From: Gemmatimonadota bacterium
GTDB lineage: Bacteria > Gemmatimonadota > Gemmatimonadetes > Longimicrobiales > Gaopeijiaceae
Reading direction: 5' to 3'
NCBI GenBank assembly: GCA_016209885.1
Contig: JACQVF010000011.1
Coordinates: forward strand, 1 to 64,000
DNA: 64,000 nucleotides
Positions 2,376-24,622 of the stretch are shown here, piece by piece (the stretch's first letter is position 1; each line of letters begins with the position of its first letter). The notes under the pieces are model-generated. The model was not told the origin of the DNA. It saw only the letters and a program-made list of their open reading frames with translations, and did no database searches. A program made the translations under genes and the position numbers.

Positions 2376-2412
2376 CTGGCCAGGCGGCGGACTGCGGGAG
2401 GGTGGCAGGATC

Positions 2413-3123: not shown

Positions 3124-4159
3124 CATCGGCAGGCGCCCGGTCGGTCCGGGCCACCCCTGTTTCCTGATCGCCGAGGCTGGTGTGAACCACAACGGCGACC
3201 TGGCGCTGGCCAGGGAGCTGGTGGACGCGGCGGCGGAGGCCGGGGCGGATGCCATCAAGTTCCAGACGTTCCGGGCCGATCGAGTCGCGAGCTCGAGGGC
3301 GCCGAAGGCCGACTATCAGCTCAAAGTCACGGACGCGGACGAGTCGCAGGTGGAGATGCTCCGGCGGCTGGAGCTCTCGCCGGCGGCGCATCGCGAGCTT
3401 CAAGCCCACAGCGGGAGTCGGGGGATCCTGTTCTTGTCCACTCCGTTCGATGAGCAGAGCGCCGATCTTCTGGAGGAGCTGGGCGTTCCGATCTTCAAGA
3501 TCGGATCGGGCGAGCTCACGAACCGGCCGTTCCTCGAACACGTGGCAGCCAAGGGCCGGCCGATCATCCTCTCCACCGGTATGTCGTATCTGAGCGAGGT
3601 GGACGAGGCGGTACGCACTCTCACTACGGCGGGCTGTACCGAGCTCGTCCTGCTGCACTGCGTGTCCGATTATCCCGCCGATCCAAGGCACTGCAACCTG
3701 CGGGCGATGCGGACGCTGGAGGCCGCGTTCCAGGTGCCGGTCGGCTTTTCGGATCATACCCCCGGCGTTGAGGTCGCCCTCGCCGCGGCGGCGCTGGGGG
3801 CGTGCGTGATCGAGAAGCACCTGACCCTGGATCGTAGCCTCGCCGGCCCGGATCACCGGGCGTCGCTCGAGCCGGCGGAGCTTCGGGCACTGGTGACGGG
3901 GGTGAGGACGGTGGAGCGCTCGCTCGGTGACGGGATCAAGCGGCCGGCGCCGAGCGAGCTGGGCAACCGAATGCTGGTTCGCCGGAGCCTGACGGCGGCC
4001 GTGGACGTGGCGGCGGGCGAGGTGCTGGAGGCGCGCATGTTGCGGGCGCTCCGGCCGGCGAGCGGCATCGCACCCACGTTCGTGGATCAGGTGGTGGGCC
4101 GGAGGGTCAGACGACCACTGGCCGCTGGGCAGTTGATTGCCTGGACCGACCTGGAATGA
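3110..4159 (+). CDS. neuB: N-acetylneuraminate-type synthase
   Basis: Condenses phosphoenolpyruvate with a six-carbon amino sugar to make a nonulosonic acid. 349 residues, normal length. The TIM-barrel opens with FLIAEAGVNHNGD and has DAIKFQTF, KIGSGELTN, STGMS and the late GFSDHT and EKHLTLDR motifs typical of NeuB/LegI/SpsE. The last 60 or so residues form the SAF (antifreeze-like) domain that caps the partner active site. The GTG start lies inside the end of neuA, and the stop overlaps the neuC start as ATGA, so translation is coupled. NeuB and LegI cannot be told apart by eye. Confidence 0.92.
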   Translation: MSAVSIGRRPVGPGHPCFLIAEAGVNHNGDLALARELVDAAAEAGADAIKFQTFRADRVASSRAPKADYQLKVTDADESQVEMLRRLELSPAAHRELQAHSGSRGILFLSTPFDEQSADLLEELGVPIFKIGSGELTNRPFLEHVAAKGRPIILSTGMSYLSEVDEAVRTLTTAGCTELVLLHCVSDYPADPRHCNLRAMRTLEAAFQVPVGFSDHTPGVEVALAAAALGACVIEKHLTLDRSLAGPDHRASLEPAELRALVTGVRTVERSLGDGIKRPAPSELGNRMLVRRSLTAAVDVAAGEVLEARMLRALRPASGIAPTFVDQVVGRRVRRPLAAGQLIAWTDLE

Positions 4160-5307
4160 GGACGATCGGCGTCGTCACCGTGAGCCGCTCCGACTACGGC
4201 ATATACATGCCGATCCTGCGTCGCATACAGAGCGATCCGGAGCTGAGACTGCACCTGATCGTGAGCGGCACCCACCTGGCATCGGAGTTCGGGTCGACGG
4301 TGGAAGGGATCGAGAGGGACGGGTTCACCGTGGGCGATCGCGTCGAGATGCTCCTGTCCTCGGATGCCCCGGAAGCGATCGCGAAGTCCATGGGGCTGGG
4401 GACGCTGGGCTTCGCGCAGTCCTATGCGCGCTGCCGGCCGGACGTCCTCCTGGTGCTCGGCGACCGATTCGAGACGCACGCGGCGGTGACGGCGTCGCTG
4501 CCGTTCAACATCCCGGTGGCGCACATCCACGGCGGAGAATGCACGGAGGGAGCCATCGACGACGCGCTGCGGCACTCCATCACGAAGATGAGCCACCTCC
4601 ACTTCGTCTCCACGGAGCTCTATGCGCGGCGGGTGGTGCAGATGGGCGAGGAGCCGTGGCGGGTCGTGGTGAGCGGTGCGCCGAGCCTGGACAACCTGGC
4701 CAGCGTCCGGCTCCTGAGCCGGGAGGAGCTGGAGGCGAAGCACAGCGTTCCCGCGAGAGATCCTTTCCTGCTCGTGACGTACCATCCGGTGACGCGGGAA
4801 TGGGAGCGAACCGAGACGCAGATGGCGGAGCTGGTGGAGGCACTGGAGCAGGTGGGCATGCCGGCCGTGTTCACCTATCCGAGCGCGGACACGGGCAGCC
4901 GCGCCATCATCGGGATGGTTCGCGAGTTCGTGGCGCGTCACCCCCGGACGAAGCTCGTGGTCAGCCTGGGGACGCCGGATTACTTCAGCCTGATGAACGT
5001 CGCGGCGGCAATGGTGGGAAACTCTTCGAGCGGGATCATCGAGGCCGCGTCGTTCAAGCTGCCGGTCGTGAACATCGGCACCCGGCAGGACGGCCGCCTG
5101 CGGGGCCGGAACGTGATCGACGTGGGTTACGGGCGTGACGAGATTCGCCGGGCCATCGAGCAAGCGATTTCCAAGGAGTTCCGGGAATGTCTTCGCGATC
5201 TCGTGAACCCGTACGGCGACGGGCGGGCGGCGGAACGCATCGTGAGCACACTGAAGACCGTGGAGCTCGGTGACGGGCTGGTGCGCAAGCGTTTCCACGA
5301 GATGTGA
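4156..5307 (+). CDS. neuC: UDP-GlcNAc 2-epimerase, hydrolysing (NeuC/LegG family)
   Basis: Makes the free 2-epimerised sugar (ManNAc or its 4-amino-6-deoxy analogue) that NeuB uses. 383 residues with the family landmarks: VTVSRSDYGIYMPIL at the N terminus, HIHGGECTEGAIDD in the middle, then GNSSSGIIEA and PVVNIGTRQDGR near the C terminus, which bind the nucleotide diphosphate. It starts with an ATG that shares four bases (ATGA) with the neuB stop. Given the LegC-like aminotransferase downstream, a LegG role on UDP-2,4-diacetamido-trideoxyhexose is as likely as NeuC. Confidence 0.9.
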   Translation: MRTIGVVTVSRSDYGIYMPILRRIQSDPELRLHLIVSGTHLASEFGSTVEGIERDGFTVGDRVEMLLSSDAPEAIAKSMGLGTLGFAQSYARCRPDVLLVLGDRFETHAAVTASLPFNIPVAHIHGGECTEGAIDDALRHSITKMSHLHFVSTELYARRVVQMGEEPWRVVVSGAPSLDNLASVRLLSREELEAKHSVPARDPFLLVTYHPVTREWERTETQMAELVEALEQVGMPAVFTYPSADTGSRAIIGMVREFVARHPRTKLVVSLGTPDYFSLMNVAAAMVGNSSSGIIEAASFKLPVVNIGTRQDGRLRGRNVIDVGYGRDEIRRAIEQAISKEFRECLRDLVNPYGDGRAAERIVSTLKTVELGDGLVRKRFHEM

Positions 5308-5310
5308 GCG

Positions 5311-5961
5311 ATGCGGGTCATCGGGATCGGAGCGGGTGGGCATGCGAAAGTCGTGATGGAGATCCTGCGGCTCACGGGCGGGCACGAGCTGGTGGGGCTG
5401 CTGGATGCGAAGCGGGAGCTGTGGGGCACGGCGGTGATGGGAGTTCCGGTGCTGGGGGACGACAGCTTGCTGTGCGAGCTCCATGGGCAGGGATTGCGTC
5501 ACGCGTTCATCGGAGTGGGCACGACCGGCGATACGAAGACGAGGCGGCGGCTGTACGAGGAGGCTCGGCGGCAGGGGTTCGAGATGGTCGCGGCGGTCCA
5601 TCCGCGAGCGGTGATCGCGTCGTCGGCGAGGCTAGGTGCCGGGCCCACGATCATGGCCGGGGCGGTTATCAACGCGGACACGTGGTTGGGGGCAAACGTG
5701 ATCGTGAACACCGGGGCGATCGTGGAGCATGACTGCGTGGTCGGCGACCATGTGCACATAGCCACGGGCGCCTGCCTGGCCGGAGCGGTTCGCGTCGGGA
5801 CGGGGGCTCACGTGGGGCTGGGCGCGTCGGTCCGGCAAGGGATCCGCATCGGCGAGAACGCGGTGGTGGGCGCCGGGGCGGCCGTGGTCGATGATGTTCC
5901 GGACGGGGTGGTGGTGGCGGGGGTGCCAGCGCGCGTCCTGCGAGGGGCGGAGGGGTCATGA
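5311..5961 (+). CDS. neuD: NeuD/PglD-type acetyltransferase (left-handed beta-helix)
   Basis: 216 residues. An N-terminal nucleotide-sugar binding domain starts VIGIGAGGHAKVV. From about residue 90 come hexapeptide repeats of the left-handed beta-helix (for example VIASSARLGAGPTI, AVVGAGAAVVDDV), ending in the family signature VVAGVPARVLRG. Members acetylate sialic acids (NeuD), or the 4-amino group of UDP-sugars (PglD/LegH). Because a sugar aminotransferase of LegC type lies just downstream, N-acetylation of the new amino group is the more attractive role. It sits three bases after neuC and its stop overlaps the start of a 39-codon frame. Confidence 0.85.
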   Translation: MRVIGIGAGGHAKVVMEILRLTGGHELVGLLDAKRELWGTAVMGVPVLGDDSLLCELHGQGLRHAFIGVGTTGDTKTRRRLYEEARRQGFEMVAAVHPRAVIASSARLGAGPTIMAGAVINADTWLGANVIVNTGAIVEHDCVVGDHVHIATGACLAGAVRVGTGAHVGLGASVRQGIRIGENAVVGAGAAVVDDVPDGVVVAGVPARVLRGAEGS

Positions 5962-6086: not shown

Positions 6087-7058
6087 ATGAGGCTACTCAT
6101 CACCGGCGGCGCCGGCTATATAGGATCGGTGACGGCGCGCTTGTTGCTCGCCCAGCGGCACGAGGTCACGGTGCTCGACTCCCTGCTGCACGGGGGACAC
6201 GCGCTCCTCAGCCTCTATCCCGATACCGGTTTCAGCTTCCTGCGTGGCGACGTGCGTTCGAGCGCCGCGGTGGGGTCCGCGCTGGATGGAGTGGACGCGG
6301 TGATTCATCTCGCTGCCATCGTGGGGGATCCGGCGTGCGCGCGACAGCCGGAGCTCGCCACCGAGGTGAACCTGGCGGCCTCCCTCCAGTTGCTCGAGCT
6401 GACCCGGCAGAGAGGGGTAGCGCGGTTCATCTTCGTCTCGACGTGCAGCAACTACGGCAGAATGCTCGATTCTTCCGGCTATGTGACGGAGGATTCCGAG
6501 CTCCGTCCAGTATCTCACTATGCAGAGACGAAGGTGGCGTTCGAGAAGGCGTTGCTCGGGATGCCTGCGGGCGACGGACCGATCGTGACGATTCTCCGGT
6601 TGGCGACGGTTTTCGGCCTGTCGCCGCGCATGCGTTTCGATCTCACGGTGAACGACTTCACGAAAGAGCTGGTGACGAAGCGGAAGTTGACGGTCTATGG
6701 AGAGCAGTTCTGTCGGCCGTACATCCATGTTCGCGATGGCGCGCGCGCCATCGCGGCGGTACTCGGGGCGCCGGCGGAGAAGATCGACGGACGGGTGTTC
6801 AACGTGGGGGACACGGGTCAGAACTACAAGAAGGCCGAGATCGTGGCCATGATCCGCGCGGAGGTCGCCGGTGATCTGGAGGTGGAGTACGTCCACAAGG
6901 ACGAGGATCCGCGAGACTATCGGGTGTCGTTCGAGAAGATCGAGCGTGAGCTCGGCTTCAAGGTCACGCGCAGCGTCGCGGACGGGATTCGCGAGATCAG
7001 GGACGCCATCGAGCAGGGTGTGATCACGGATCCCGATAATCCGTGCTACCGGAACTGA
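6087..7058 (+). CDS. NAD-dependent nucleotide-sugar epimerase/dehydratase (extended SDR)
   Basis: 323 residues. The dinucleotide-binding loop is TGGAGYIG (6-13), the STCSNYG segment supplies the catalytic-triad Ser/Thr region, and the catalytic pair is Tyr145-x-x-x-Lys149 (YAETK). Later RPYIHVRDGARAI and VFNVGDTGQNYKKAEI are typical of GalE-like and related sugar-nucleotide enzymes. It precedes the aminotransferase by four bases, so it may make the keto sugar that the aminotransferase uses (a LegB-like role), or act as a C4 epimerase/reductase. The GGAGYIG form fits epimerases slightly better than 4,6-dehydratases. Confidence 0.8.
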   Translation: MRLLITGGAGYIGSVTARLLLAQRHEVTVLDSLLHGGHALLSLYPDTGFSFLRGDVRSSAAVGSALDGVDAVIHLAAIVGDPACARQPELATEVNLAASLQLLELTRQRGVARFIFVSTCSNYGRMLDSSGYVTEDSELRPVSHYAETKVAFEKALLGMPAGDGPIVTILRLATVFGLSPRMRFDLTVNDFTKELVTKRKLTVYGEQFCRPYIHVRDGARAIAAVLGAPAEKIDGRVFNVGDTGQNYKKAEIVAMIRAEVAGDLEVEYVHKDEDPRDYRVSFEKIERELGFKVTRSVADGIREIRDAIEQGVITDPDNPCYRN

Positions 7059-7062
7059 GGTC

Positions 7063-8271
7063 GTGGGAGTGAGCAAGCATATTGTCGGGCCGGATATGAC
7101 GGCGAGAGGCGACGGGATCATTCCGCTGTGTGTGCCGGAGATTCGCGGCAAAGAGTGGGAGTACGTGAAGGAGTGCCTGGACTCGAACTGGGTGTCGTCG
7201 GTGGGCCCGTTCGTCGAGGTGTTCGAGCGCAAGGTGGCGGAACTCGTGGGAGCGAGGTACGCCGTGGCGACGGACAGCGGCACCGCGGCCCTGCACGTGG
7301 CTGTGCTGCTGGCCGGGATCGCTGCGGATGACGAGGTGCTGGTCTCGACGCTTTCGTTCATCGCACCCGCAAATGCCGTCCGCTACGCAGGGGCGTGGCC
7401 CGTGTTCGTGGACGCGGAACCCGAATACTGGCAGATGGACCCGGAGAAGGCGGTGGATTTCCTGGAGAAAGGATGCGAGTGGCGGCGCGGTGCGTTGTAT
7501 AACAAGGTCTCGGGGCGGCGGCTGAAGGCGATTCTGCCCGTGCACGTGCTTGGTCATCCATGTGATGTGGATCCCATCCTGGAGGCTGCCCGCAAATACG
7601 ACCTGGCGGTGATCGAGGATGCGGCGGAGAGCCACGGGGCGAGGTACAAGGGGCGGAGCGTCGGGCATCTCGGGGATATCGGCTGCTTCAGCTTCAACGG
7701 TAACAAGATCGTGACGGCCGGGGGCGGAGGTGTGGTCGTCACCGACAACGAGGACTGGGCCCGCAAGGCGAAGTACCTGACGACGCAGGCGAAGGACGAC
7801 CCGGTGGAGTACGTGCATCACGAGATCGGCTACAACTACAGGCTGACGAACCTTCAGGCGGCGCTGGGCTGCGCGCAGTTGGAGCAGCTCGACGCGTATA
7901 TGGTGGAGAAGCGGAGGATCGCCGCCAGGTACAGGGAGGCGTTCCGGGAGCTGTGCGGCATCGACTCCATGCGGGAAGCGCCCTGGGCGCTAAGCATCTT
8001 CTGGCTGTACACGATCCTGGTGGATGAGAGCCAGTACGGGATGGACAGCCGCGTGCTGCTGAGGCGTCTGGGGGAGGCGGGGATCCAGGCGCGACCGCTG
8101 TGGCAGCCGTTGCATCTGAGCAAGGTCCACGCCGGGGCTCAGGCCACAGACTGCTCCGTTGCCGAGCGGTTGAACCGGCAGGCGTTGAGTCTGCCGTCCT
8201 CGGTGGGCCTCAGCGCCGCGGACCAGCAGCGCGTGATCGACGTCATCTGCAACTCGGCCGCCGGCACCTGA
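7063..8271 (+). CDS. DegT/DnrJ/EryC1/StrS sugar aminotransferase, LegC-like
   Basis: PLP-dependent transfer of an amino group to a keto-sugar nucleotide. 402 residues; the N-terminal NWVSSVGPFVEVFE and the later TDSGTAALHVA, IEDAAESHGA and FSFNGNKIVTAGGGG are hallmark segments, with the PLP lysine at Lys215. TTQAKDDPVEYVHHEIGYNY is very close to what I remember of LegC aminotransferases of legionaminic acid pathways. GTG at 7063 or GTG two codons later could be the start. Together with NeuA-D homologues it argues for a diamino nonulosonic acid rather than plain Neu5Ac. Confidence 0.87.
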   Translation: MGVSKHIVGPDMTARGDGIIPLCVPEIRGKEWEYVKECLDSNWVSSVGPFVEVFERKVAELVGARYAVATDSGTAALHVAVLLAGIAADDEVLVSTLSFIAPANAVRYAGAWPVFVDAEPEYWQMDPEKAVDFLEKGCEWRRGALYNKVSGRRLKAILPVHVLGHPCDVDPILEAARKYDLAVIEDAAESHGARYKGRSVGHLGDIGCFSFNGNKIVTAGGGGVVVTDNEDWARKAKYLTTQAKDDPVEYVHHEIGYNYRLTNLQAALGCAQLEQLDAYMVEKRRIAARYREAFRELCGIDSMREAPWALSIFWLYTILVDESQYGMDSRVLLRRLGEAGIQARPLWQPLHLSKVHAGAQATDCSVAERLNRQALSLPSSVGLSAADQQRVIDVICNSAAGT

Positions 8272-8328: not shown

Positions 8329-10368
8329 GTGGACCGGCTGCGCAAGTTTCGTTCGGAGCGGAAGACGCTAGCCCTGCTGGACGGTTATCGGTTGCAGCGA
8401 ACGGGCGCTTCGCAGTCATGGGCGGACGGGCTCTACCGCGGGTGGGTGCTGCGTGGCTTGCGGCGCGCCGCGGGTGAGGGGGCGGAGCTGCTGGTGGTCG
8501 CGCGGGATGGCGAGGCTGTTGCGAGCTTGCAGGCGGCGTTACCCGGCGTCGATGTCGTCTCTCTGCTCCAGCAACTGCGGGACGTGGATACGGAAGTGGT
8601 GACCCGGGAGGCGGCGATCCTGGCGACGTCCTGGTTCAAGGGCGAGGGCCGGGAGGCGATCGCCGCGGCGTTCGAGTTCGACGGGATGTCGGTTCTGGAG
8701 GCCCACTACGAGGGGCTGGTGGTGTATTTCATCGAGAGCATCAACACGACAGTCGCACTGGAGTCGCTCTTCGAGCGGCAGCGGCCGCGAAGGGTGATCC
8801 TCGAGCACCGCGGTACGATGCAGGGGGTGGCGCGTGAACTGCTGCGGCGTCATCGGCCTGCTTCGGTCCGGTATTTGATGCCGATGCCGGCGGAAGCGGC
8901 GCTACGCCGCGTGCGCGCCCTGTGGGCGGCGAAGTCGGCGGCGCTTCCCCTGGCGCGGCACGAGCGCGGGGACCGGCCTCCGAGTCCTGCGAACCCGATC
9001 CTGTTCGCCCCTCAGTCGCCCAGCGTCGTGGGCGCGTACCTTCCAGTTGCGCGATGCCTCGCCGAGCGGGGCGAGGTAGTGGCGTTTCTGCTTGCCCGCG
9101 CCTGGGGGCCAGAAGTGACGGCACAGGTACCTCCTTCGAACGGCGTGCTCTATCTCGAGGACTTTGTGCCGGCGGATATCGGGGAGCGTGTGGCGGAGGC
9201 GATGGGCCAGCTCCTGCCTCGCGCCATGCGGGTGCTGCGCTCGAGGGCGCCGGGTCCGATCCGGCATCAGGGGCTCGCCCTTGAAGAGGAGTTTCGCCGC
9301 TGGCTGCGACGCGGCCTTCCCGAGGTCATGCGCGAGAGCCTGTTCTACCTTTTTGCCTACCGTGAGATGCTGGCGGCGGTCCGGCCACGCCGCGTGATGG
9401 TGAGCGCCGACCAGAACCCGCGCGGCCATCCGCTGGTCAGGGCGGCGGAACGTGGCGGGGTGCCGACGATCCGGATGGACGGCGGCAACGTAGGCGAAGC
9501 GATCTTCCGCCACGTGGCGAAGGTGAAGGGGGTGGGCCGGGACGGGGCGGTAACCTGGGATCTGTACGTGGATCGACTGGCCGTGGAGACGCGGCGGGTG
9601 CGGGACCGGTTCGTGGGCCTGGGGATCGACGCCGAGCGCATCGGAGCCGTGGGTTTCCCCCGGCTGGACCAACTATGCCCGGATGCGGAGATGACGCCGC
9701 CCGAGGCCGTCACAGCCGCCCTGGGGATTCGGCCGTCGGAGAAGGTAGTGCTTTGCGCGGTGATGAAACCGTGGAGGTACCTCGGCTGCACGGCCGAGAC
9801 GCGGCGGCGTTTCCTGAGGGCTCTGGTCGAGATCCTTGCGGATCTGGGTGGCGTCTTCCTGATGGTGAAGCCCCATCCTTCGGATGCGACTCTGAGTCGG
9901 GGCGATGTCGAGGAGCTGATGCGGGCGAGCGGGCTCCGAGGCCGGGTCATCGACCGGCAGTTCCCTATGCCACGGCTGCTCGCCATCACGGACCTGGCCA
10001 TCGCGCCCTGGTCGACGGTCGCCCTCGAGAGCGTCGTGCTGGGGCGCCCGGCGCTCCTGGAGACGCTGTCCTGGCACCGCTGGTTTGCCGATCCTCCGTG
10101 GTCGCTGAGCCGCAGGCTCGAAGAAGCTGGCCTGCTGCCCGTGGTGACGAGCCGGAGCGAAATGGCGGCGAAGGTCCGCCAGCTCCTGGGCGACCAGGGT
10201 TTCGCCGCCGAATGGCGGCGAAAGCAGCGAGCATTCGTTGCCGCGGAGATGCCGGCGCTGGGCGGCACCGCTTCGGGGCTAACCGCCTCGCTCATTCAAC
10301 GGGCGATCACGGCGCGAGTGCGGGCCGAGCAGCCGGCGCCTCTCGCTGCAGAGGTGCAGCGCAGGTGA
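8329..10368 (+). CDS. GT-B-like surface-carbohydrate transferase of uncertain specificity
   Basis: 679 residues starting at a GTG 57 bases after the aminotransferase. The N-terminal half has no motif I can name. The C-terminal half (about 430-640) reads like the sugar-nucleotide-binding half of a GT-B fold: VGFPRLDQL, an MVKPHPSD segment and APWSTVALESVVLGRPAL, the pattern shared by CDP-glycerol:polyglycerophosphate transferases and capsule Kdo transferases. It has no signal peptide or obvious membrane helix, so it is probably cytoplasmic. Its stop overlaps the next start as GTGA. It may transfer the CMP-nonulosonate made by the upstream genes, but this is a guess from position. Confidence 0.5.
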   Translation: MDRLRKFRSERKTLALLDGYRLQRTGASQSWADGLYRGWVLRGLRRAAGEGAELLVVARDGEAVASLQAALPGVDVVSLLQQLRDVDTEVVTREAAILATSWFKGEGREAIAAAFEFDGMSVLEAHYEGLVVYFIESINTTVALESLFERQRPRRVILEHRGTMQGVARELLRRHRPASVRYLMPMPAEAALRRVRALWAAKSAALPLARHERGDRPPSPANPILFAPQSPSVVGAYLPVARCLAERGEVVAFLLARAWGPEVTAQVPPSNGVLYLEDFVPADIGERVAEAMGQLLPRAMRVLRSRAPGPIRHQGLALEEEFRRWLRRGLPEVMRESLFYLFAYREMLAAVRPRRVMVSADQNPRGHPLVRAAERGGVPTIRMDGGNVGEAIFRHVAKVKGVGRDGAVTWDLYVDRLAVETRRVRDRFVGLGIDAERIGAVGFPRLDQLCPDAEMTPPEAVTAALGIRPSEKVVLCAVMKPWRYLGCTAETRRRFLRALVEILADLGGVFLMVKPHPSDATLSRGDVEELMRASGLRGRVIDRQFPMPRLLAITDLAIAPWSTVALESVVLGRPALLETLSWHRWFADPPWSLSRRLEEAGLLPVVTSRSEMAAKVRQLLGDQGFAAEWRRKQRAFVAAEMPALGGTASGLTASLIQRAITARVRAEQPAPLAAEVQRR

Positions 10369-11324
10369 GAGACGCGGCGAGAGTGGCGGAGGTGATCGTG
10401 TCCGGAGACGATGAGGCCAATAGGGCCATGGTCTCCGGCGTGGAGTGCCGGCTGTGCGGAGGTCCTGCGTGCGCGCGGGTGCCGATGGGCTCCACGGCTT
10501 CGCTAGTGGCGCCGGACTACGTCCCCGTCGTCTATCGCTGCCCGACGTGTCGCTCCCAGTTCCTGTACCCTCCGGCGCCGCCCGGCTGGCTGGAGCGCTT
10601 CTTCAGCGCCTCGGTGCCGCGAACGGATGCCCAGCGCGCGCAGCTCGAAGATCCCCGGAGCCGGGCGCGCTACCGGAGTCTGGGCGCGGCCCGCGCCCGC
10701 TGGCTGGCGGGGCGGGTCCGGGGAGGTAGGGTCCTGGACATCGGGTGTGGCCCCGGGTACCTGCTGGCCGCGTTTCGGGAGATGGGCTGGCAGACGCTGG
10801 GTATCGATCCGAATCCGCTCTTCGTCGAGTTCGCGGGCCGGGAGCTGTCCGTCGAGGTCCTACCGGGTTCGTGGCAGGGGGTGGGGAAGCTGGTTGCCGA
10901 CGGCTCGGTCGATCTGCTCACGATCCTCCACCTCCTTCACATGGTGGAGGATCCCCAGGCGTTCCTGCGTTCGGCGATCCGGAAGCTGCGGCCCGGGGGC
11001 TTCCTGTTCGTGGAGCTGGGGAACGAGGTGGACAACTGGCGGCGGACCCTGTGGGGCACGGCCCGCCGACTGCGCGGGCGCGGGGAGACACCGCTCCATT
11101 ACGCATTGCCGAAGCAGACGTATCCGACGTCGCGCGGGCTCGCCGCCCTGGTGAGGCGCGCGGGAGTGCGCCCCCTCTATCTGGGAGGCTATTTCCCGCC
11201 CGTCCTGACGCGGACGTACGCCCGGCCGACGGTCGCGGAGCGATTCGTGGCGGCCCGCGAAGCGCTCCTCTCACGCTGCGGGCGCGGGTCCGTGCTGGTG
11301 ATGCTGGGTCGGTACAGGGTGTAG
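10365..11324 (+). CDS. Class I SAM-dependent methyltransferase with N-terminal zinc ribbon
   Basis: 319 residues if the GTG at 10365 (GTGA overlap with the previous stop) is used; an in-frame ATG at 10428 is an alternative just ahead of the cysteines. Two CxxC pairs (C28/C31 and C59/C62) form a zinc ribbon, followed by the SAM-binding motif VLDIGCGPGYLLA and LLTILHLLHMVEDP. The layout matches the C-methyltransferase/Methyltransf_23 type often found in nucleotide-sugar and O-antigen clusters. The substrate is probably a sugar hydroxyl or an activated sugar. A second zinc-ribbon methyltransferase of this type lies at 46937. Confidence 0.8.
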   Translation: MRDAARVAEVIVSGDDEANRAMVSGVECRLCGGPACARVPMGSTASLVAPDYVPVVYRCPTCRSQFLYPPAPPGWLERFFSASVPRTDAQRAQLEDPRSRARYRSLGAARARWLAGRVRGGRVLDIGCGPGYLLAAFREMGWQTLGIDPNPLFVEFAGRELSVEVLPGSWQGVGKLVADGSVDLLTILHLLHMVEDPQAFLRSAIRKLRPGGFLFVELGNEVDNWRRTLWGTARRLRGRGETPLHYALPKQTYPTSRGLAALVRRAGVRPLYLGGYFPPVLTRTYARPTVAERFVAAREALLSRCGRGSVLVMLGRYRV

Positions 11325-11327
11325 GCG

Positions 11328-12941
11328 GTGGCTTTGCTGCGCTGGCTCAAGTTCTTCCGATACAATCCGTTCGCTATCGAGGTCGCCGCCCGTTACGCGT
11401 GGAAGCGGAGGTCGGGCCGTCCGCTGCTGGGTGTCGGCGTGCTGGGCTGTGGCGGCGGCGGCCTCATGCATACCTCCCACTACCTCTGGCACCTCGAAAC
11501 CGATGTGCGGGCGGTCTTCGACCCGAGCGGGCGCCGGTTCGCGGATCTCGACAAGCGGTTCCCGTACATGGACCGGCGCGTGCTGCGGACCACGGATCTC
11601 CAGGAGGTGCTGCGTCGGCCCGATATCGATCTCATCTCCGTGTGCACGCCCGATCACACCCACGCCGACTACGTGGTGGCAGCCCTGGAGGCGGGCAAGC
11701 ACGTCCTTTGCGAGAAGCCGATGTGCACGACGCTCGAGGACTGCGAGCGGATCATCCGTGCGGCGGACGGGGCGTCCACCGTGTTCCTGGTCTTTCAGCA
11801 GATGCGCTTCGTGCCCCGGAACGTGGCGATCAAACGGCTGATCGACTCGGGCGCGCTGGGCGAGGTCTTCTACGCGGAGACGGGCTATATCCACGACATG
11901 CGCCATCGGGTCACGGAGTTCAGCCGTTGGCGGCTGGACCCGCGGCAGTTCCAGCATCCGATCTTCGGCGGCTGTCATCATATCGATCTGATCCGGTGGC
12001 TCGCGGGGGAAATCGACGAGGCGCACACGCTCGGCTGTCACAAAGCTCTCCCCGACTATCCGGCCGACGATACCTACGTGACGGCTATGCGCCTGAGAAG
12101 CGGTGCCGTGTGTCAGGTGCTGACGACCTTCGGCCCGCGCGTGCCCACGGAGTTTCATCCCATCCGGATCTATGGCACCAGGGGCTCGATCCACGACGGG
12201 ACGGTCTTCCTCGACAACGGCTCACGGGTGGAGAGCAGGCCGCTGGGCGCGCGGGAGTATCGTGGCGCCCCCGATTTTCGCGCGCAGATCAGCCACTTCG
12301 TGGACTGCGTTCGCGGGCGGACGGAGCCGCTCGTCGCGGCGCGGGACGGGGCGCGCACGGTCGCGGCCTGCTGGGCCGCCATCGAATCGTGGAGGACGGG
12401 GCGGCCGGTGGCGGTGCCGCAGATCGACGGGGCCCCTGAGAGAGACCGGAGGGATGCCGCGGCCGGGATACGGCATTTGGAAAGTCGTACTGCGGGGCCT
12501 GAACCCATGATCCTGCGGGTCGATCACTTGGGCATCGCCGTCCGGGATGCGGAGCCGCTGTTGCCGCTGTGGGAGAAGCTCGGCTTCACGGTGGGCGCCC
12601 GTGGTCTGGCCCCCGCGTACGCCACGCACTGCCAGTTCCTATCCCACGCGAACGTCGAGCTCGAGTTGGTCTTCCCCGCCGGGCCCGGGAGCAGCGTGAG
12701 CTCGTTTCTCGAGCGCCGGGGGGAAGGGCTGCATCACATCGCCCTGGAGGTGGATGATCTGGAGGCGGAGATGGAGCGCCTGCGGGCGGCGGGCATGGTC
12801 TTCGTGGACGCCCATCCGCAGAAGGGTGCGAAGCCGGGAATGAAGGTCGCCTTCCTGCACCCGGCGAGCACCCGCGGAGTCCTGGTGGAGCTGGTCGAGT
12901 ATCGGCGTGGCTCAGAGGGCGAGAGCGTCGATGAGCGATGA
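11328..12941 (+). CDS. Gfo/Idh/MocA oxidoreductase fused to a methylmalonyl-CoA-epimerase-like VOC domain
   Basis: One uninterrupted frame of 537 residues. Residues about 35-385 are a Gfo/Idh/MocA NAD(P) oxidoreductase: GVGVLGCGGGG, then SVCTPDHTHADYV and the catalytic-loop GKHVLCEKP. From Met394 to about 525 the protein is a VOC/glyoxalase-fold domain resembling methylmalonyl-CoA epimerase: VDHLGIAVRD, RGEGLHHIALEVDDLEAEM and GVLVELVEY, including His and Glu residues that bind metal in that family. The ATG at 12507 could restart translation of the VOC part alone, but its ribosome site is weak. The next genes are FkbH-like and ACP, so acting on an acyl-thioester or a related C3 unit is plausible. 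I do not know a described enzyme with this domain pair. Confidence 0.78.
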   Translation: MALLRWLKFFRYNPFAIEVAARYAWKRRSGRPLLGVGVLGCGGGGLMHTSHYLWHLETDVRAVFDPSGRRFADLDKRFPYMDRRVLRTTDLQEVLRRPDIDLISVCTPDHTHADYVVAALEAGKHVLCEKPMCTTLEDCERIIRAADGASTVFLVFQQMRFVPRNVAIKRLIDSGALGEVFYAETGYIHDMRHRVTEFSRWRLDPRQFQHPIFGGCHHIDLIRWLAGEIDEAHTLGCHKALPDYPADDTYVTAMRLRSGAVCQVLTTFGPRVPTEFHPIRIYGTRGSIHDGTVFLDNGSRVESRPLGAREYRGAPDFRAQISHFVDCVRGRTEPLVAARDGARTVAACWAAIESWRTGRPVAVPQIDGAPERDRRDAAAGIRHLESRTAGPEPMILRVDHLGIAVRDAEPLLPLWEKLGFTVGARGLAPAYATHCQFLSHANVELELVFPAGPGSSVSSFLERRGEGLHHIALEVDDLEAEMERLRAAGMVFVDAHPQKGAKPGMKVAFLHPASTRGVLVELVEYRRGSEGESVDER

Positions 12942-14895
12942 TGTGCGCACGGTACCGCCCGTACCGCAGCGTGAGGCCGTGGAGGAGAGCTACGGGGAGG
13001 TGCTGGCCAGGGTGGAGCGCGCGTCCACGCAGGCGGAGGTGGAGCGCCTCGCGCGGACGCTCCAGCGCCTGGCGCCCGGTGGGGGCCTGCGCCCCGTCCG
13101 TCTGGCGCTGGTGGGATCCTTCACGGTGGAGCCGCTGGCCCCGCACCTCACGGTTCGCTGCCACAAGGCCGGACTCCGCCCGGAGATCTTCGTGGCACCG
13201 TACGGGCGGTTCCAGCAGCAGCTCCTCGCGGGCGACAGCGAGCTGTATCGCTCCGCGCCGGAAATCGTCTTTCTCTCGCTGGAGCTGGACGCGCTGGTGC
13301 GCGGGCTGTCCGAGCTGCCGTTCCTGGACGTGCAGGCGCGCCGGGACGCGCTGGAGCGGGCGGTCGATGGCGTGGACGTCCTGCGCCGCCGGTTCTCCGA
13401 GCACAGCCGCGCGCTCCTGGTGGTCCACAACTTCGTGCGCCCTTCCTGGTCGCCGTACGCTCTGCTGGATGACCGCCATCCGGGGGGGCTCGGCCCGTGG
13501 TATCGAGAGCTGAACGAGCGGCTGAGCGAGCTGTGCCGCGAGGATCCGCGGGCGTTCGTTCTCGACATGGACGGGCTCGTGGCGTGGCATGGATCGGCGC
13601 GCGCGAGCGACCCGCGTCTGCGCTACCTGGCGCGCATGGCGTACGCAGAGGGATTCCTGCCCATGGTGGCGGACGCGTACATGGGTTACGTGAAGGCGCT
13701 GCTCGGCCTCACCCGGAAATGCATCGTTCTGGATCTGGACAACACGCTGTGGGGCGGCATCGTGGGTGAGGACGGAATGGGTGGCCTTATGCTCGGGCCG
13801 GAAGGGCTCGGGCAGGCGTTCGTCGATTTTCAGAAGATGCTGCTGGCGCTGCACCGGCGGGGCGTCATCCTGGCCATCTGCAGCAAGAACGACGAAGCCG
13901 AGGCGCTGCGCGTTCTGCGGGAGCACCCGCACATGGTGCTCAAGCCGGAGCACTTCGCGGCGTGGCGCATCAACTGGGGCGATAAGGTGACGAACCTCCG
14001 GGGGATCGCCCGGGAGATCAATATCGGCCTGGACAGCCTGGTCTTCTTCGACGACAACCCCGCGGAGCGCTACGTGGTGCGTGCGGCGCTGCCGGAGGTG
14101 CTGGTGCCGGATCTTCCGGACGATCCCGCGCTGTTCCCGCAGATGCTCGCGAGCCTGAACGACTTCTCGACGCTCGTGCTGACATCCGAGGACATGGAGC
14201 GGGGCCGCGACTATGCGCGCCTGCGGGCGCGCCGCGAGTTCGAGTCGGTGGCGGCCTCGCTGGACGAGTATCTGGCCGGGCTGGAGACGGTGGCGGAGGT
14301 GGCGCGCGCGACGGAGTTCGTACTGCCGCGCTTGGCGCAGCTCACCCAGCGCACGAACCAGTTCAACCTGACGACGCGGCGCTACTCGCTCGCCGACATG
14401 GAGTCCCTGGCGTCGGATCCTTCGGTGCGCCTCTACAGCCTGCGGTTGCGCGATCGCTTCGGGGACAGCGGCACCGTGGGGTGCGCCGTGGTGATGCGGG
14501 AGAGTGAAAGCACCTGCTGGCGGATCGACACGCTTCTTCTCAGTTGCCGGGTCATTGGCCGGGGGGTCGAGACCGCATTCCTGGCGGCGGTGGCCAGCGA
14601 TGTGTGGGGCGCGGGGGCGGAGCTCCTGGTGGGCGAGTGGATCCCGTCAGGGAAGAACGGGCTGGTGGCCGACTTCTTCCCGCAGCGCGGGTTCCGGCCG
14701 CGGCAGCAGGGTCCCGACGGCCGCGCCGTGTGGGAACTGAGTTTCGATGACCTCGGCCGGCCGGGCCACCCGCTGGGCGTTCCGCCGCACATCCGGCTCG
14801 AGGTGAGCGAGGGCATGCCGCAGCCAGGTGCGCGGGACCGACCGGACCGACCGGAGCGACGGGCCCGAGAGGAACGAAGGGACAGCGTGGAATGA
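12931..14895 (+). CDS. FkbH-like HAD-IIIC protein (putative glyceryl/acyl loading onto ACP)
   Basis: 654 residues from ATG 12931, which lies inside the end of the previous gene. The HAD core carries IVLDLDNTLWGG with Asp268/Asp270, CSKNDEAEA and VFFDDNPAE. N-terminal to it is the SGNH-like region seen in long FkbH proteins, and the C-terminal third (about 480-640) is the GNAT-like domain with TQRTNQFNLTTRRY and DRFGDSG. Characterised relatives in polyketide pathways take a glyceryl group from a glycolytic phosphate and load it on a small ACP. The gene immediately after encodes an ACP with ATGA overlap, which supports the same chemistry here. The final 30 residues are charged and probably disordered. 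Confidence 0.85.
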   Translation: MSDDVRTVPPVPQREAVEESYGEVLARVERASTQAEVERLARTLQRLAPGGGLRPVRLALVGSFTVEPLAPHLTVRCHKAGLRPEIFVAPYGRFQQQLLAGDSELYRSAPEIVFLSLELDALVRGLSELPFLDVQARRDALERAVDGVDVLRRRFSEHSRALLVVHNFVRPSWSPYALLDDRHPGGLGPWYRELNERLSELCREDPRAFVLDMDGLVAWHGSARASDPRLRYLARMAYAEGFLPMVADAYMGYVKALLGLTRKCIVLDLDNTLWGGIVGEDGMGGLMLGPEGLGQAFVDFQKMLLALHRRGVILAICSKNDEAEALRVLREHPHMVLKPEHFAAWRINWGDKVTNLRGIAREINIGLDSLVFFDDNPAERYVVRAALPEVLVPDLPDDPALFPQMLASLNDFSTLVLTSEDMERGRDYARLRARREFESVAASLDEYLAGLETVAEVARATEFVLPRLAQLTQRTNQFNLTTRRYSLADMESLASDPSVRLYSLRLRDRFGDSGTVGCAVVMRESESTCWRIDTLLLSCRVIGRGVETAFLAAVASDVWGAGAELLVGEWIPSGKNGLVADFFPQRGFRPRQQGPDGRAVWELSFDDLGRPGHPLGVPPHIRLEVSEGMPQPGARDRPDRPERRAREERRDSVE

Positions 14896-15146
14896 CGAGC
14901 GAGCGCGCCCGGAACGAGCAGCGGCTTTGCGAAGTCATGAGCACGGCCTTCGATGCGGAGATCAACGGCTTGAGGGATACGGATTCGCCCGAGACCATCT
15001 CCGGCTGGGATTCGCTATCTCATCTGAGCTTCGCCCTGGCGATGGAGTCTGCATTCGCAATCCGGCTGACCACCCTCGAGATCGTGGAGATGAAGGATGT
15101 TGCGGCGGCGAAGGCCGTGCTGCGCGGGCGCGGCGTCCTGATCTGA
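14892..15146 (+). CDS. Discrete acyl carrier protein
   Basis: 84 residues, the usual size of a stand-alone ACP. The GWDSLSH motif puts the phosphopantetheine-carrying serine at Ser41, and the following helix (LSFALAMESAFAIRL) and IVEMKDVAAA match ACP helices II and III. Its ATG overlaps the FkbH-like stop, so the two proteins are made together. It most likely holds the acyl group built by the FkbH-like and VOC-fusion proteins until an acyltransferase, perhaps the adjacent GNAT, passes it on. Confidence 0.87.
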   Translation: MTSERARNEQRLCEVMSTAFDAEINGLRDTDSPETISGWDSLSHLSFALAMESAFAIRLTTLEIVEMKDVAAAKAVLRGRGVLI

Positions 15147-15159
15147 GCGAGGATCCGCA

Positions 15160-16227
15160 CTGGATATTCGGCTTTACGAGCCGGCGGTCGACTGGCCGGC
15201 GCTCTGCGATTTCTACGCTGCCTGCTGGCCGGAGCGCGAGCACAGGGATCGGCTGCGCGTCCAGCTCGCGTGGCAGTACGAGACGAACCCGGGTGCCCAC
15301 GGCTATCGCCACTACGTGGCCGTGCACGAGGGCGTGATCCTGGGCCAGTTGGGCACGATTCAGGTGGAGCTGTGCGTCGGAGCCGAGCGGGTGGACGCGT
15401 GCTGGCTGGTGGATTTCATGGTGCGCCCGGAATACCGCAATCGGGCGCTGGGTGCGTTGCTGCTGCGCCGTGCCGGCGAGGACTTTCCGCTGTGCATGGC
15501 GCTGGGAATGACGGATGCGGCGGAGCGGATCTTCCGGGGCCTGAAGTGGGCGGACCTGGGCGAGTCGAGCTTCTGGTGGCGGGTGCTGCGCTGGAAGCCG
15601 CTGCTCGCGACGTATTCTCGACTGGCGCCGATCACGTCGCTGGCCGGGGCGGCCCTCGATCTCGCGTCCGGCGGCTCGAGGGCGTGGCGGGCGGGTCGGG
15701 CCACGTCCGCCGTACGGGCGGAACCTGTGCCGTCGATTGATGAGCGATTCGGACCGTGGCTCGACGAAGTCGGCCGCGACTATGGTGTTCTGGCGGCGCG
15801 CTCGGTTGCCTATCTGAAGTGGCGGTATCTGGAGAAGCCGGGGACCCGCTACCGCATCCTGGCGGCGTACCGGGACGGAGATCCGGCGGGCTACGCCGTG
15901 CTGGCCGAGTCGCGGTTCCGCGGGGTTCTTCCCATGGGCGTGGTTCTGGAGCTGCTGACCCGCAAGACCGATGGGGAGGCGCGGCGCGCGCTCCTCGGGG
16001 CGGCCGAGGCGCAGTTTCGGCGCGTCGGGATGGCGATCATGTCCTGCAACACGACCTGCCCGGCGCTCGGGGCGAGCCTCCGGGAGACGGGATTCCGTTC
16101 GGGCGGGCTCGGGCAGCGAGTGATGGTCGATGTGACTCGGGTGCGGGGTCTGGCGGAGATACTGTCCAAGGCGGACAACTGGTTCCTCGGTCGCGGGGAC
16201 GCGGACGGTGACAACGGCTGCTGGTAA
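15160..16227 (+). CDS. GNAT-family acyltransferase, apparently starting at CTG
   Basis: From the first in-frame GTG (15316) the protein would lack its N-terminal GNAT strands. The frame is open back to 15142, and a CTG at 15160 sits six bases after a GAGGA ribosome site, giving 355 residues. The paralogue at 23543 (359 residues) supports this: its WQYLENPRQQG...GGAIVGQ segment aligns with WQYETNPGAHG...EGVILGQ encoded here upstream of the GTG. Both share a VDFMVRPEYRNRALG/SDFLVHPDYQGSGVG acetyl-CoA-site region and end with DNWFL or KNWFI followed by G-x-x-D-G-D. Next to the ACP, it is a candidate to move the ACP-bound acyl group to an amino sugar (inference). Confidence 0.75.
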   Translation: MDIRLYEPAVDWPALCDFYAACWPEREHRDRLRVQLAWQYETNPGAHGYRHYVAVHEGVILGQLGTIQVELCVGAERVDACWLVDFMVRPEYRNRALGALLLRRAGEDFPLCMALGMTDAAERIFRGLKWADLGESSFWWRVLRWKPLLATYSRLAPITSLAGAALDLASGGSRAWRAGRATSAVRAEPVPSIDERFGPWLDEVGRDYGVLAARSVAYLKWRYLEKPGTRYRILAAYRDGDPAGYAVLAESRFRGVLPMGVVLELLTRKTDGEARRALLGAAEAQFRRVGMAIMSCNTTCPALGASLRETGFRSGGLGQRVMVDVTRVRGLAEILSKADNWFLGRGDADGDNGCW

Positions 16228-18499
16228 GCCACGAGCGCGGCTCGTGAAGGCCGTGGGTGAGATGGGGCGCCTGCGGGTGGCGCATATCAAGACGCCGTTT
16301 CTGGGCTACTCCGAAACCTTCATCCACAACTACATCCGCCATCTCACAGGGTTCGAACCGGTGGTCGTGACGGAGTACACGATCAACGAGGAGCGCTATC
16401 CCGTACGGGAGATCGTGCGGCTGCGACGCCACGCCGGCTGGTTCGAAAGGCCGCTGGCGTTCACGCGCTTGTACGTGGCGAAATACGTCCAGCGGGAAAT
16501 CCTGATGGCGCGACCGTATGCGCGGGCACTGCGGGTGTCGGGGGCAGCCCTGATGCACGTTCATTTCGGCGCGCCGGGCCTCATGCTCCTGGACGTGAAG
16601 CGACGGGTCGGGCTGCCCATGGTTGTCTCATTCTACGGCTACGACCTGTCGCAGCTTCCGCGGGCGATGGGGCACGATATCTACCGGCGCAACGGGTTGT
16701 TCGAGCGCGGCGAGGCGTTCACGGTGGAAGGGACCTTCGCGCGTCGGTGTCTGCTCGATCTGGGCTGTCCGCCGGAGAAAGCGCATATCCTTCACGTCGG
16801 CGTCGACCTGGAGCAATTCGCGTTCGTGCCACGCCGGCTTCAAGGAGGCGAGAGGCCGCGGCTCTTCTTCTGCGGCCGATTGGTGCCGAAGAAGGGGCTC
16901 CTGCCCGCGCTGCAGGCGCTGGCGGAGGTACGCCGGGCGGGATACGACTTCGAGCTGCGCGTCGCCGGCGCCGGACCGGACGAGGGCGCGGTGAGGTCTC
17001 TGGTTCGGGAGCTGGAGCTGAGCGATCGTGTGACGTTCCTGGGCATTGTGACGCATCAGGAGTTCCTGAGGGAATGTCAGCGGAACCACGTTCTGCTGGC
17101 CCCTAGCCGGACGGATCCCCGGTCCGGGGAAACCGAGGGTGGCTCGCCCACGGTGATCCTGGAGGCTCAGGCCACGGGGATGCCCGTGGTATCGACGCGG
17201 CACGCCGATATTCCCGAGGCAGCTCCCGACGGGGTCGGCGCGTTCCTGGCGGCCGAGGGAGACGTGGAGGACTTAGCGCGGTGCGTGAAGCGCGCGCTGG
17301 AGGAAGCGGAGCGCTGGCCAGAGATGGGCCGGGCCGGGCGCGCGCACATAGAGGCCAGTTATGACATCCGGAACGCGGTGCGACAGTTGGAAGATCTGTA
17401 CGAGCGGCTGCTGTCCGAGCAGGATGTGGCACGCCGGGAGGTGCGGGAAGAGTCCAGCAGGCCGACAGACCGCGGGACCTGGCCGTATGTCGTGCTGCTC
17501 CGCAGTGGCGCGGTGGCGAGAGCGCGCAATCGCAACCGTCGCTACGCGAGGATCATCCTCTACCACAGCGTCGCGCCCGAGGAAAGCCCTTATACGCGGG
17601 GGCTGGGGGTCACGGTCAAGCCGGCCACGTTCGCGAAGCAGTTGGACTATCTGTGCCGCCACTACGAGGTGGTGAGCCTGGCGGAGCTGGTGGAGCGGCT
17701 CGCTCGCGGCACGTTGGGGGAGCGGGTCGTGGTCATAACGTTCGATGACGGTTTTGCGGACACGTACCGTACTGCGCTGCCCATGCTGCGAGAGCGCGGG
17801 CTTCCGGCGACGATGTTCCTGGTGGCGGACGCCATCGACAACAAGTCGGTGCTCTGGATGCACCGGCTTGCGTACTTGGGCAACACGTGCGGGGCCGAGT
17901 GCGTGTTGCGCGCCGCGGGGAGCGCCCTCGGGGAAACATTGGTCCAAGGACTTGGCCCGGACGCTGCCGTGCGCAACCTGAGGGAGAGGATGACTTGCCG
18001 CATGGCGCCGCTCGCTCGCGACCGCCTGTTGGACCGGTTGTGTGACGCGCTCCGGGTGAGCCCCGAGGAAGCGCCGCAACGGGCGGGGCTTTATCTCAGC
18101 CGCGACGAGATCGCGTCCATGCGGGCTCAGGGAATCGCTTTCGGTTGTCACGGTGCTACGCATACGGCCTTCGCCGTGCTTTCCGAGGCGGAACAGGAGG
18201 AAGAGCTGCGCCAGAGCCGGGAGGCGGTGGCTCCCTGGGCGGATGGTTCGGCTTTCCCTCTGGCCTACCCCTTCGGGGAGTCGCGCCACTACACGGAGAT
18301 GGCCCGGCGGCTCGCGCTGGACCTGGGATACGACTCGCTGCTGGCCGCCGGCGGGGGGTGGGTGGGACCCGAATCGGAGGTGACGGCTCTGGATCGGATC
18401 AAGGTCGAGGAAGAGCCTCTGGCCGCGTTTGCGGCCCGGCTGGAGGGCGTGTCGCTGCGCACCTCGACGGTCGGCCTGCTCCGTGGCTGGAGGCCTTGA
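16208..18499 (+). CDS. GT4 glycosyltransferase fused to a polysaccharide deacetylase (CE4/NodB) domain
   Basis: 763 residues. The GT4 part (about 20-395) shows VAHIKTPFLGYSETFIHNY, LFFCGRLVPKKGLLPAL and the nucleotide-sugar-binding GGSPTVILEAQATGMPVV. After a 40-residue polar linker, residues about 440-745 form a NodB-like deacetylase: IILYHSV, TFDDGFADTY with Asp513/Asp514, and the metal-binding His648-x-x-x-His652 (HGATH). The GT half is clearly paralogous to the unfused enzyme at 22255. One polypeptide would thus add a sugar and perhaps remove an N-acetyl group, although the two domains usually act in different compartments. The GTG start overlaps the GNAT gene by 20 bases; ATG 16262 is an alternative. 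Confidence 0.85.
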   Translation: MTTAAGKPRARLVKAVGEMGRLRVAHIKTPFLGYSETFIHNYIRHLTGFEPVVVTEYTINEERYPVREIVRLRRHAGWFERPLAFTRLYVAKYVQREILMARPYARALRVSGAALMHVHFGAPGLMLLDVKRRVGLPMVVSFYGYDLSQLPRAMGHDIYRRNGLFERGEAFTVEGTFARRCLLDLGCPPEKAHILHVGVDLEQFAFVPRRLQGGERPRLFFCGRLVPKKGLLPALQALAEVRRAGYDFELRVAGAGPDEGAVRSLVRELELSDRVTFLGIVTHQEFLRECQRNHVLLAPSRTDPRSGETEGGSPTVILEAQATGMPVVSTRHADIPEAAPDGVGAFLAAEGDVEDLARCVKRALEEAERWPEMGRAGRAHIEASYDIRNAVRQLEDLYERLLSEQDVARREVREESSRPTDRGTWPYVVLLRSGAVARARNRNRRYARIILYHSVAPEESPYTRGLGVTVKPATFAKQLDYLCRHYEVVSLAELVERLARGTLGERVVVITFDDGFADTYRTALPMLRERGLPATMFLVADAIDNKSVLWMHRLAYLGNTCGAECVLRAAGSALGETLVQGLGPDAAVRNLRERMTCRMAPLARDRLLDRLCDALRVSPEEAPQRAGLYLSRDEIASMRAQGIAFGCHGATHTAFAVLSEAEQEEELRQSREAVAPWADGSAFPLAYPFGESRHYTEMARRLALDLGYDSLLAAGGGWVGPESEVTALDRIKVEEEPLAAFAARLEGVSLRTSTVGLLRGWRP

Positions 18500-23542: not shown

Positions 23543-24622
23543 ATGAGCCGGATTGACGGGATCGAGGTGACCAGGCTGAAGAGCGACGAATACCCCTCTC
23601 TCTTGCCTCTGCTCGAGCAGGGCTATGCGGGCCGGGAGACGAAGCTGTCTCCGGAGCGGTGGCGCTGGCAGTACCTGGAGAACCCGAGACAACAGGGGCC
23701 GGAGCTGTGCACGTGGGTGGCGCGGATCGGGGGCGCCATTGTCGGGCAGCGTCCCACGATGCCCACGGTCCTCAAGATCGGCGACGAGTACTACGACGCC
23801 CACTGGGCGAGCGACTTTCTCGTGCATCCGGACTACCAGGGGTCCGGCGTGGGCTCCCGGCTCATGGAGAGCGTGCACCGGGAAGCGGACATTTTCCTGA
23901 CCCTGGATTCGAGCCCCGCGTCCCGCAGGATCTATGCGAAGCTGGGGTTTGCCTGGATGGGCTTTGTTCCGCGGCTCGTGCGCGTCTGCGATCCCGGCCG
24001 GCTGGCGCTGAAGGCGGGCCTCCTGGGGCGCATGGCCGGGCGTATGGCCGGGGCGGCGCTCGTCCGGGCCTGGGACTGGCGCTCGGGACGCCGCGCGGCC
24101 GTGGCGTCTGCGAGAGGAGTGGAGGTGGAGCGTGCGGAGAGCTTCGGGGCGTGGGCGGACGAGCTGTGGGAACGCGTGAGGGGCCATTACCGGGTCATGA
24201 CGAAGCGGGACGCCACGTTTCTCAACTGGCGGTACACCGCGAGTCGCGATTTCTGCCGTATACTCGTGGTGCGACGCGGGCCTTTGTCCACGGGCTATCT
24301 CGTGTACCGGATCGTGGAAGGGGGCGGCAGGGGTTTCCTGAGCGATTTGCTGGGTGCCCCGGACGACGGCGCCAGCCTGGATCTTCTGATCGCGCGCGCC
24401 CTCGAGGAGCTGCGGGCGGAGGGTGTCGCGGCGGTGGAGACGTTTGCCCTGCACCCCGCCCTGCGGCGTCGGTTGCGGGCGCACGGCTTCGTGAGGTCGG
24501 GGCCCGGCGTGACGTTCATCGTGGGCACGAGACTCGGGGGCGAGGCGCGAGCTCTGCTCCTGGGCCGGAAGAACTGGTTCATCACCGGCGCGGACGGTGA
24601 CGTGGGTCCCGTGTTCCGCTGA
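23543..24622 (+). CDS. GNAT-family acyltransferase (paralogue of the 15160 gene)
   Basis: 359 residues. SDFLVHPDYQGSGVGSRLM is the acyl-CoA-binding strand-loop-helix of GNAT enzymes, and FLTLDSSPASRRIYAKLGF follows as in that fold. A second GNAT-like half (about 190-340) contains FLNWRY, seen in FemAB-like double GNATs; the paralogue has YLKWRY at the same place. It ends with KNWFITGADGDVGP. Such proteins N-acylate amino sugars in surface-polysaccharide loci. The gap before it (58 bases) and after it holds nothing recognisable. Confidence 0.75.
   Translation: MSRIDGIEVTRLKSDEYPSLLPLLEQGYAGRETKLSPERWRWQYLENPRQQGPELCTWVARIGGAIVGQRPTMPTVLKIGDEYYDAHWASDFLVHPDYQGSGVGSRLMESVHREADIFLTLDSSPASRRIYAKLGFAWMGFVPRLVRVCDPGRLALKAGLLGRMAGRMAGAALVRAWDWRSGRRAAVASARGVEVERAESFGAWADELWERVRGHYRVMTKRDATFLNWRYTASRDFCRILVVRRGPLSTGYLVYRIVEGGGRGFLSDLLGAPDDGASLDLLIARALEELRAEGVAAVETFALHPALRRRLRAHGFVRSGPGVTFIVGTRLGGEARALLLGRKNWFITGADGDVGPVFR

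Follow-up and report, generated by a model that had tools for sequence, protein, structure and literature searches.

A candidate ACP-based acyl-donor module in a nonulosonate and polysaccharide locus of Gemmatimonadota, beside a doubtful Gfo-VOC fusion

A group of neighbouring genes in a polysaccharide locus of a Gemmatimonadota bacterium may encode a short-chain acyl-donor module, in which an FkbH-like protein, a free acyl carrier protein (ACP), a VOC protein and a tandem-GNAT acyltransferase would act stepwise to decorate a surface polysaccharide. We regard this reading of the genes and of their homologues as evenly balanced between right and wrong. The core pathway idea appears sound, backed as it is by the recurrence of FkbH-ACP-GNAT and FkbH-ACP-VOC combinations in other loci. 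The fusion of a Gfo/Idh/MocA oxidoreductase with the VOC protein, which headed the preliminary description of this DNA, is doubtful.

The genes lie within a stretch of 64,000 nucleotides (the window) in a draft genome of 4.15 Mb, 115 contigs and ~67% G+C, where the polysaccharide genes form a single long plus-strand run across the region (Table 1). A near-complete nonulosonic-acid set (NeuA/B/C/D, LegC) adjoins the genes of the acyl module. When the locus is examined as one of legionaminic type, NeuB/LegI, NeuC/LegG, LegC and NeuD all score above their NCBIfam cut-offs, and homologues of the LegB dehydratase and of the PseF-type cytidylyltransferase are present, both below cut-off. To the 3' side of the GNAT gene there follow the glycosyltransferase-deacetylase, more glycosyltransferases and a second tandem GNAT, with export and chain-length genes further on; models for XrtA match the window below cut-off only. 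The gene families and the order first proposed for the module hold, while the five consecutive coupled genes of the preliminary description are reduced to four, namely Gfo and VOC in one frame, FkbH, ACP and GNAT. Elsewhere in the window, the gene at 47898-48758 has a third-position G+C of 0.58, clearly under that of the rest of the locus, and is possibly a recent acquisition.

Table 1. Features of the nonulosonate genes, the acyl module and their surroundings (coordinates within the window)
Feature	Position	Strand	Basis and remarks
Transketolase-like protein	444-2375		Head of nonulosonate genes; below all transketolase equivalog cut-offs
CMP-nonulosonate cytidylyltransferase (NeuA/PseF-like)	2404..3123	+	TIGR03584 171.8 bits, cut-off 205.7 missed; start approximate
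Nonulosonate synthase (NeuB/LegI)	3110..4159	+	TIGR03569 451 bits, over cut-off
UDP-GlcNAc 2-epimerase, NeuC/LegG type	4156..5307	+	TIGR03568 457 bits, over cut-off
NeuD/PglD-type sugar acyltransferase	5311..5961	+	TIGR03570 225 bits, over cut-off
NAD-dependent epimerase/dehydratase, LegB-like role possible	6087..7058	+	PF01370; TIGR04180 (LegB) 70 bits, cut-off 475
LegC-family aminotransferase	7063..8271	+	TIGR04181 455 bits, cut-off 420
Glycosyl/glycerophosphotransferase-like protein	8329..10368	+	PF04464 23.4 bits
SAM-dependent methyltransferase	10404..11324	+	PF13489 1.4e-18; start approximate
Gfo/Idh/MocA oxidoreductase part	11328..12416	+	PF01408/PF02894; EKP Lys130 and His217 present
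Link of non-coding composition; suspect join or young fusion	12417..12503	+	Codon log-odds -6.5
VOC part, methylmalonyl-CoA-epimerase-like	12504..12941	+	TIGR03081 101-105 bits; own ATG
FkbH-like HAD-IIIC/acyl-ACP loading protein	12931..14895	+	TIGR01686 281.1 bits, cut-off 146.65
Free acyl carrier protein	14892..15146	+	Ser41 the expected phosphopantetheine site (W39-D40-S41)
Tandem-GNAT acyltransferase, probable CTG start	15160..16227	+	PF00583; model pLDDT 85
Glycosyltransferase and polysaccharide deacetylase, one protein	16208..18499	+	PF13692 and PF01522
Second tandem-GNAT protein, same family	23543..24622	+	PF13508; 29% identity to first

First of all, the FkbH-like protein is, as judged from its sequence, certain in its identity, and its most likely start is the ATG at 12931. 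The HAD DxDxT residues D276, D278 and T280, together with Cys547, are invariant in 57 aligned FkbH proteins (residue numbers count from the ORF start at 12907). FkbH proteins are known to take glyceryl from 1,3-bisphosphoglycerate and pass it to free ACPs in polyketide pathways (PMC7489565, PMC3679948). Since every FkbH catalytic position is kept, glyceryl loading on the ACP is the likeliest first step here. The ACP itself finds no match in Pfam and NCBIfam at a loose limit, with none to PF00550 up to an E-value of 10. A profile built from ACPs that neighbour FkbH genes recovers it with an E-value of 7e-20, and the serine of the WDS motif is invariant in all 58 FkbH-linked ACPs, the one in the window and 57 others. 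The genome holds two candidates for a phosphopantetheinyl transferase.

Second, FkbH and ACP keep similar company elsewhere. Among 395 genomes sampled from the phylum, 70 have FkbH, and we compared the neighbourhoods of 77 FkbH genes, 73 from phylum genomes (this one included) and four from plasmids. Of these 77 loci, 57 have an ACP no more than 2.5 kb away, 30 a hexapeptide acyltransferase at up to 8 kb, 15 a member of the tandem GNAT family and 12 a methylmalonyl-epimerase-like VOC, both at up to 4 kb, and 11 a polysaccharide deacetylase. The counts include the window and some related genomes and thus do not represent independent events. The FkbH proteins closest to that of the window (44-46%) include those of FkbH-ACP-GNAT runs in three genomes (G286, G243 and G158), and a further genome (G112) has VOC-FkbH-ACP-GNAT in one run, after exosortase-like genes. 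Throughout the phylum, the comparison supports a pairing of FkbH-ACP and an acyltransferase within polysaccharide loci, and the earlier proposal, in which an ACP carries the acyl unit in such a locus and the GNAT is the likely transferase, gains from the recurrence of FkbH-ACP-GNAT with sugar genes. That these genes might co-occur only with an unrelated lipid or polyketide pathway had been named in advance as the outcome that would count against the proposal; the genes instead recur beside sugar genes too, and a polyketide or lipid setting is rejected, as a polyketide synthase occurs in only 7 of the 77 FkbH loci, at least five of these beside short FkbH forms. Hexapeptide and GNAT types tend to exclude each other (p 0.004, a value that ignores kinship), but this is only a hint, since many hexapeptide loci come from one genus, and the association of deacetylase with GNAT is weak (p 0.03).

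Third, the module might carry an acyl unit that is not glyceryl. FkbH might load another phosphorylated or hydroxy acid, giving a different N-acyl or O-acyl group. An Azospirillum plasmid (L196 2875-9068) has a deacetylase followed by an ACP, an AMP-binding protein (AMP-ligase), AsnB, a NadE-like protein and a tandem GNAT, so that there an AMP-ligase replaces FkbH as the candidate loading enzyme next to a GNAT of this family. The G158 locus (L100 8809-16703) combines FkbH with an AMP-ligase-like gene and with a pair each of GNATs and ACPs, which suggests two acyl-loading routes side by side. Against a load other than glycerate stand the full set of FkbH catalytic positions and the described activity of the family, which is glyceryl loading, and we consider it unlikely.

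The tandem GNAT protein would complete the module. Its frame is longer than the ORF that begins with ATG, GTG or TTG at 15316, and there is no such in-frame start codon earlier. The coding signal begins at ~15143, directly after the ACP, and the structure model is confident from about residue 1 and from its first strand. These features together make the CTG at 15160, which is preceded by GAGGA, the probable start. The modelled fold is that of N-myristoyltransferase and of bacterial tandem GNATs; the matches being N-acyltransferases, transfer to an amine is plausible.

The TIGR03081 score of the VOC protein misses the cut-off of 114.95, and an ordinary methylmalonyl epimerase that exceeds this cut-off is encoded elsewhere in the genome (G000:C93). 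On score and placement, the window VOC is not the normal methylmalonyl epimerase. The metal-site positions H10, E56, H80 and E131 are conserved across the aligned VOCs. FkbH-linked VOCs stand apart from 32 ordinary epimerases in the tree (support 96/87), with the window VOC outside the epimerases, and on this placement we reject a recent duplication of the genome's own epimerase as its origin. Mapped on the tree, the labels FkbH-linked and ordinary require a single change, a result that none of 500 shuffles equals. Branch support for the FkbH-linked VOCs as a single clade is weak (56/0); the window VOC joins a long-branch relative only (91/87), and its sequence resembles ordinary epimerases more closely than do those of most FkbH-linked VOCs. 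TIGR03081-like VOCs near FkbH would be expected ~0.4 times, and at least seven are seen besides the window (P ~3e-7), the expectation being drawn from ~140 TIGR03081-like matches in 58 genomes, ~238 Mb and 70 FkbH genes, with the density estimated from a table. VOC occurs with FkbH-ACP in 11 other loci, all lacking Gfo. Outside the phylum, a Rhodobacteraceae plasmid and S. meliloti pSymB carry a VOC together with ACP-FkbH, and a Paludibaculum plasmid (L194 3819-5357) carries exosortase, ACP, VOC and XrtA polysaccharide deacetylase genes consecutively, with no FkbH found on that stretch. The VOC co-occurs with GNAT and with hexapeptide transferase types alike, and thus its role would be on the donor side. 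A tentative and more far-reaching proposal, which we think has more against it than for it, is that the VOCs paired with FkbH-ACP have a new activity, epimerising (or dehydrating) glyceryl while it is bound to the ACP, as part of a widespread and undescribed polysaccharide-decorating module (FkbH or AMP-ligase, ACP, VOC, and a GNAT, hexapeptide or MBOAT transferase) that has here just been joined to a sugar dehydrogenase.

As assembled, the Gfo/Idh/MocA and VOC domains form one open frame at 11328-12941 (Pfam GFO_IDH_MocA 1.5e-25, Glyoxalase_4 6.5e-21), in which homology to Gfo extends to about residue 365 and that to VOC begins at residue 397. The intervening link of 87 bp has a codon log-odds that only 2 of 1295 jackknifed coding segments equal or fall below; scored against off-frame codons it gives -5.7, the median being 14.9. 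A real inter-domain linker in the same locus, that of the glycosyltransferase-deacetylase, scores +3.5 to +16.9 and is thus coding-like. An ATG is still present at the head of the VOC part, and inserting a single base into GGGGCCCC (a G4C4 run at ~12429-12436) would end the Gfo protein at ...QIDGGP-stop. The stop of Gfo may have been lost recently by mutation, or the sequence may hold one wrong base; a frame scan of the window reveals no further broken gene, so a general indel problem is absent, which counts against a sequencing error in the link. The link looks non-coding, and whether the stop was lost or a base is wrong, the two domains are best treated as neighbouring genes until proven otherwise. 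No full-length relative of the fusion was found in a scan of genome contigs, in 298 genomes of the phylum or on plasmids, and at the genus level it is confined to this genome, so the fusion is rejected as a conserved architecture. A single-sequence structure model of the fusion (pLDDT 37) is too poor for use. In the Gfo part the EKP lysine and the histidine are retained; a Phe replaces the typical aspartate four residues before that histidine, a position that varies among the relatives examined too. None of the other FkbH loci examined has a Gfo beside FkbH, and the Gfo part, which fits least well with the rest, is probably a dehydrogenase in its own right, with a sugar (or acyl) substrate, that has no stop codon in this sequence. 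The idea of a new fusion acting as the pathway enzyme thus finds no backing, the VOC alone being the recurrent partner. More generally, where an assembled genome seems to contain a new fusion, the stretch between the domains should be tested for coding signal.

Two readings would nevertheless keep the fusion as a working enzyme. According to one, it is a real bifunctional sugar epimerase that serves the polysaccharide and is unrelated to the ACP route; its Gfo part would oxidise a ring hydroxyl to a ketone, its VOC part would epimerise the adjacent carbon, now acidified, and the Gfo part would then re-reduce the ketone. The single open frame in a window free of other frameshifts, the conserved VOC metal positions and the closest solved relatives of the Gfo part, which are sugar/glycoside oxidoreductases such as aldose-aldose oxidoreductase and DgpA, all speak for it, but the composition of the link, the absence of the fusion from the genomes and contigs scanned and the loci that have VOC and FkbH-ACP without Gfo make it improbable. 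The other, in line with the preliminary description, has the fusion alter an ACP-bound C3 unit by redox and epimerisation, for instance with glyceryl dehydrated by the VOC to pyruvyl and this reduced by Gfo to lactyl, or with an oxidation towards hydroxymalonyl like that of methoxymalonyl-ACP synthesis. It draws on the direct overlap of the fusion frame with the FkbH-ACP genes and on redox steps on glyceryl-ACP known from FK520-type pathways (PMC7489565). Those steps, on the other hand, use acyl-CoA-type and 3-hydroxyacyl dehydrogenases, and neither an FkbI acyl-CoA dehydrogenase nor an FkbK hydroxyacyl dehydrogenase, as expected of a methoxymalonyl-ACP pathway, is among the neighbouring genes scanned. 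To our knowledge no Gfo enzyme acts on an ACP thioester, and with Gfo missing beside FkbH in other loci we judge this second reading to be just as improbable as the first.

Under the preferred reading of an acyl-donor module, the FkbH-like protein would take glyceryl from 1,3-bisphosphoglycerate, hold it on the conserved Cys, remove the phosphate and load the glyceryl on the free ACP. The VOC would then act on the ACP-bound unit at the carbon beside the thioester, the simplest chemistry being C2 epimerisation from D- to L-glyceryl, with dehydration as an alternative. In its proton chemistry, epimerisation of glyceryl at C2 equals the reaction of methylmalonyl-CoA epimerase. From the ACP, the tandem GNAT would transfer the acyl group to a sugar amine, which could be one released by the next-door deacetylase or one that belongs to the nonulosonic acid. 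O-methylation of the acyl unit, or possibly of the sugar, may be the task of the adjacent methyltransferase. Substrate, epimerisation and acceptor sugar are what we infer from these families and their neighbours, and the nonulosonate as acceptor is a guess, since no other FkbH locus of the set has a nonulosonate synthase beside FkbH.

The closest known system is found in Campylobacter jejuni 11168, which carries 2,3-di-O-methylglyceroyl on pseudaminic acid (PMC3068675). Two C. jejuni strains without the modification lack either the FkbH-domain gene cj1302 or the 'epimerase' gene cj1301 (PMC7099621). There is thus already a recorded case in which a nonulosonate bears a glycerate-type acyl group and the locus includes an FkbH gene, and the earlier remark that no system with this exact set was known to be described was too strong; a literature search linking FkbH to O-antigen, legionaminic acid or glyoxalase gave nothing beyond the cj1301 paper. 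The C. jejuni flagellin locus (Cj1295-Cj1302) resembles the window in being a nonulosonic-acid locus with an FkbH-domain gene and a glyceroyl amide on the nonulosonate, but serves a flagellin glycan of pseudaminic rather than legionaminic type and has no Gfo part described; to that picture the window adds the VOC and the tandem GNAT. FK520, tetromadurin and bafilomycin (tetronates, methoxymalonyl-ACP) likewise use an FkbH-like protein and a free ACP (PMC7489565, PMC3679948). Their pathways, however, feed a polyketide synthase and use FkbI/FkbK-type oxidases or FabH, whereas the window has no FkbI/FkbK or FabH and places a GNAT after the ACP in a sugar locus. Methylmalonyl-CoA epimerase (TIGR03081) shares with the window VOC the VOC fold, a score of ~100 bits and the metal positions, the window protein being set apart by the family cut-off and by its place outside the phylum's epimerase clade. 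Finally, XrtA/PEP-CTERM-type exopolysaccharide loci (Paludibaculum, Azospirillum) also have ACP, VOC or tandem GNAT beside a polysaccharide deacetylase, but FkbH is not listed there.

Acyl groups on surface sugars shape phage and immune recognition, and most are assumed to be CoA-derived. A recurrent ACP-based route would provide gene markers for glyceryl-type decorations and could account for both stereoisomers. Furthermore, the FkbH and 'epimerase' genes that are unexplained in Campylobacter-type loci could then be tested directly.
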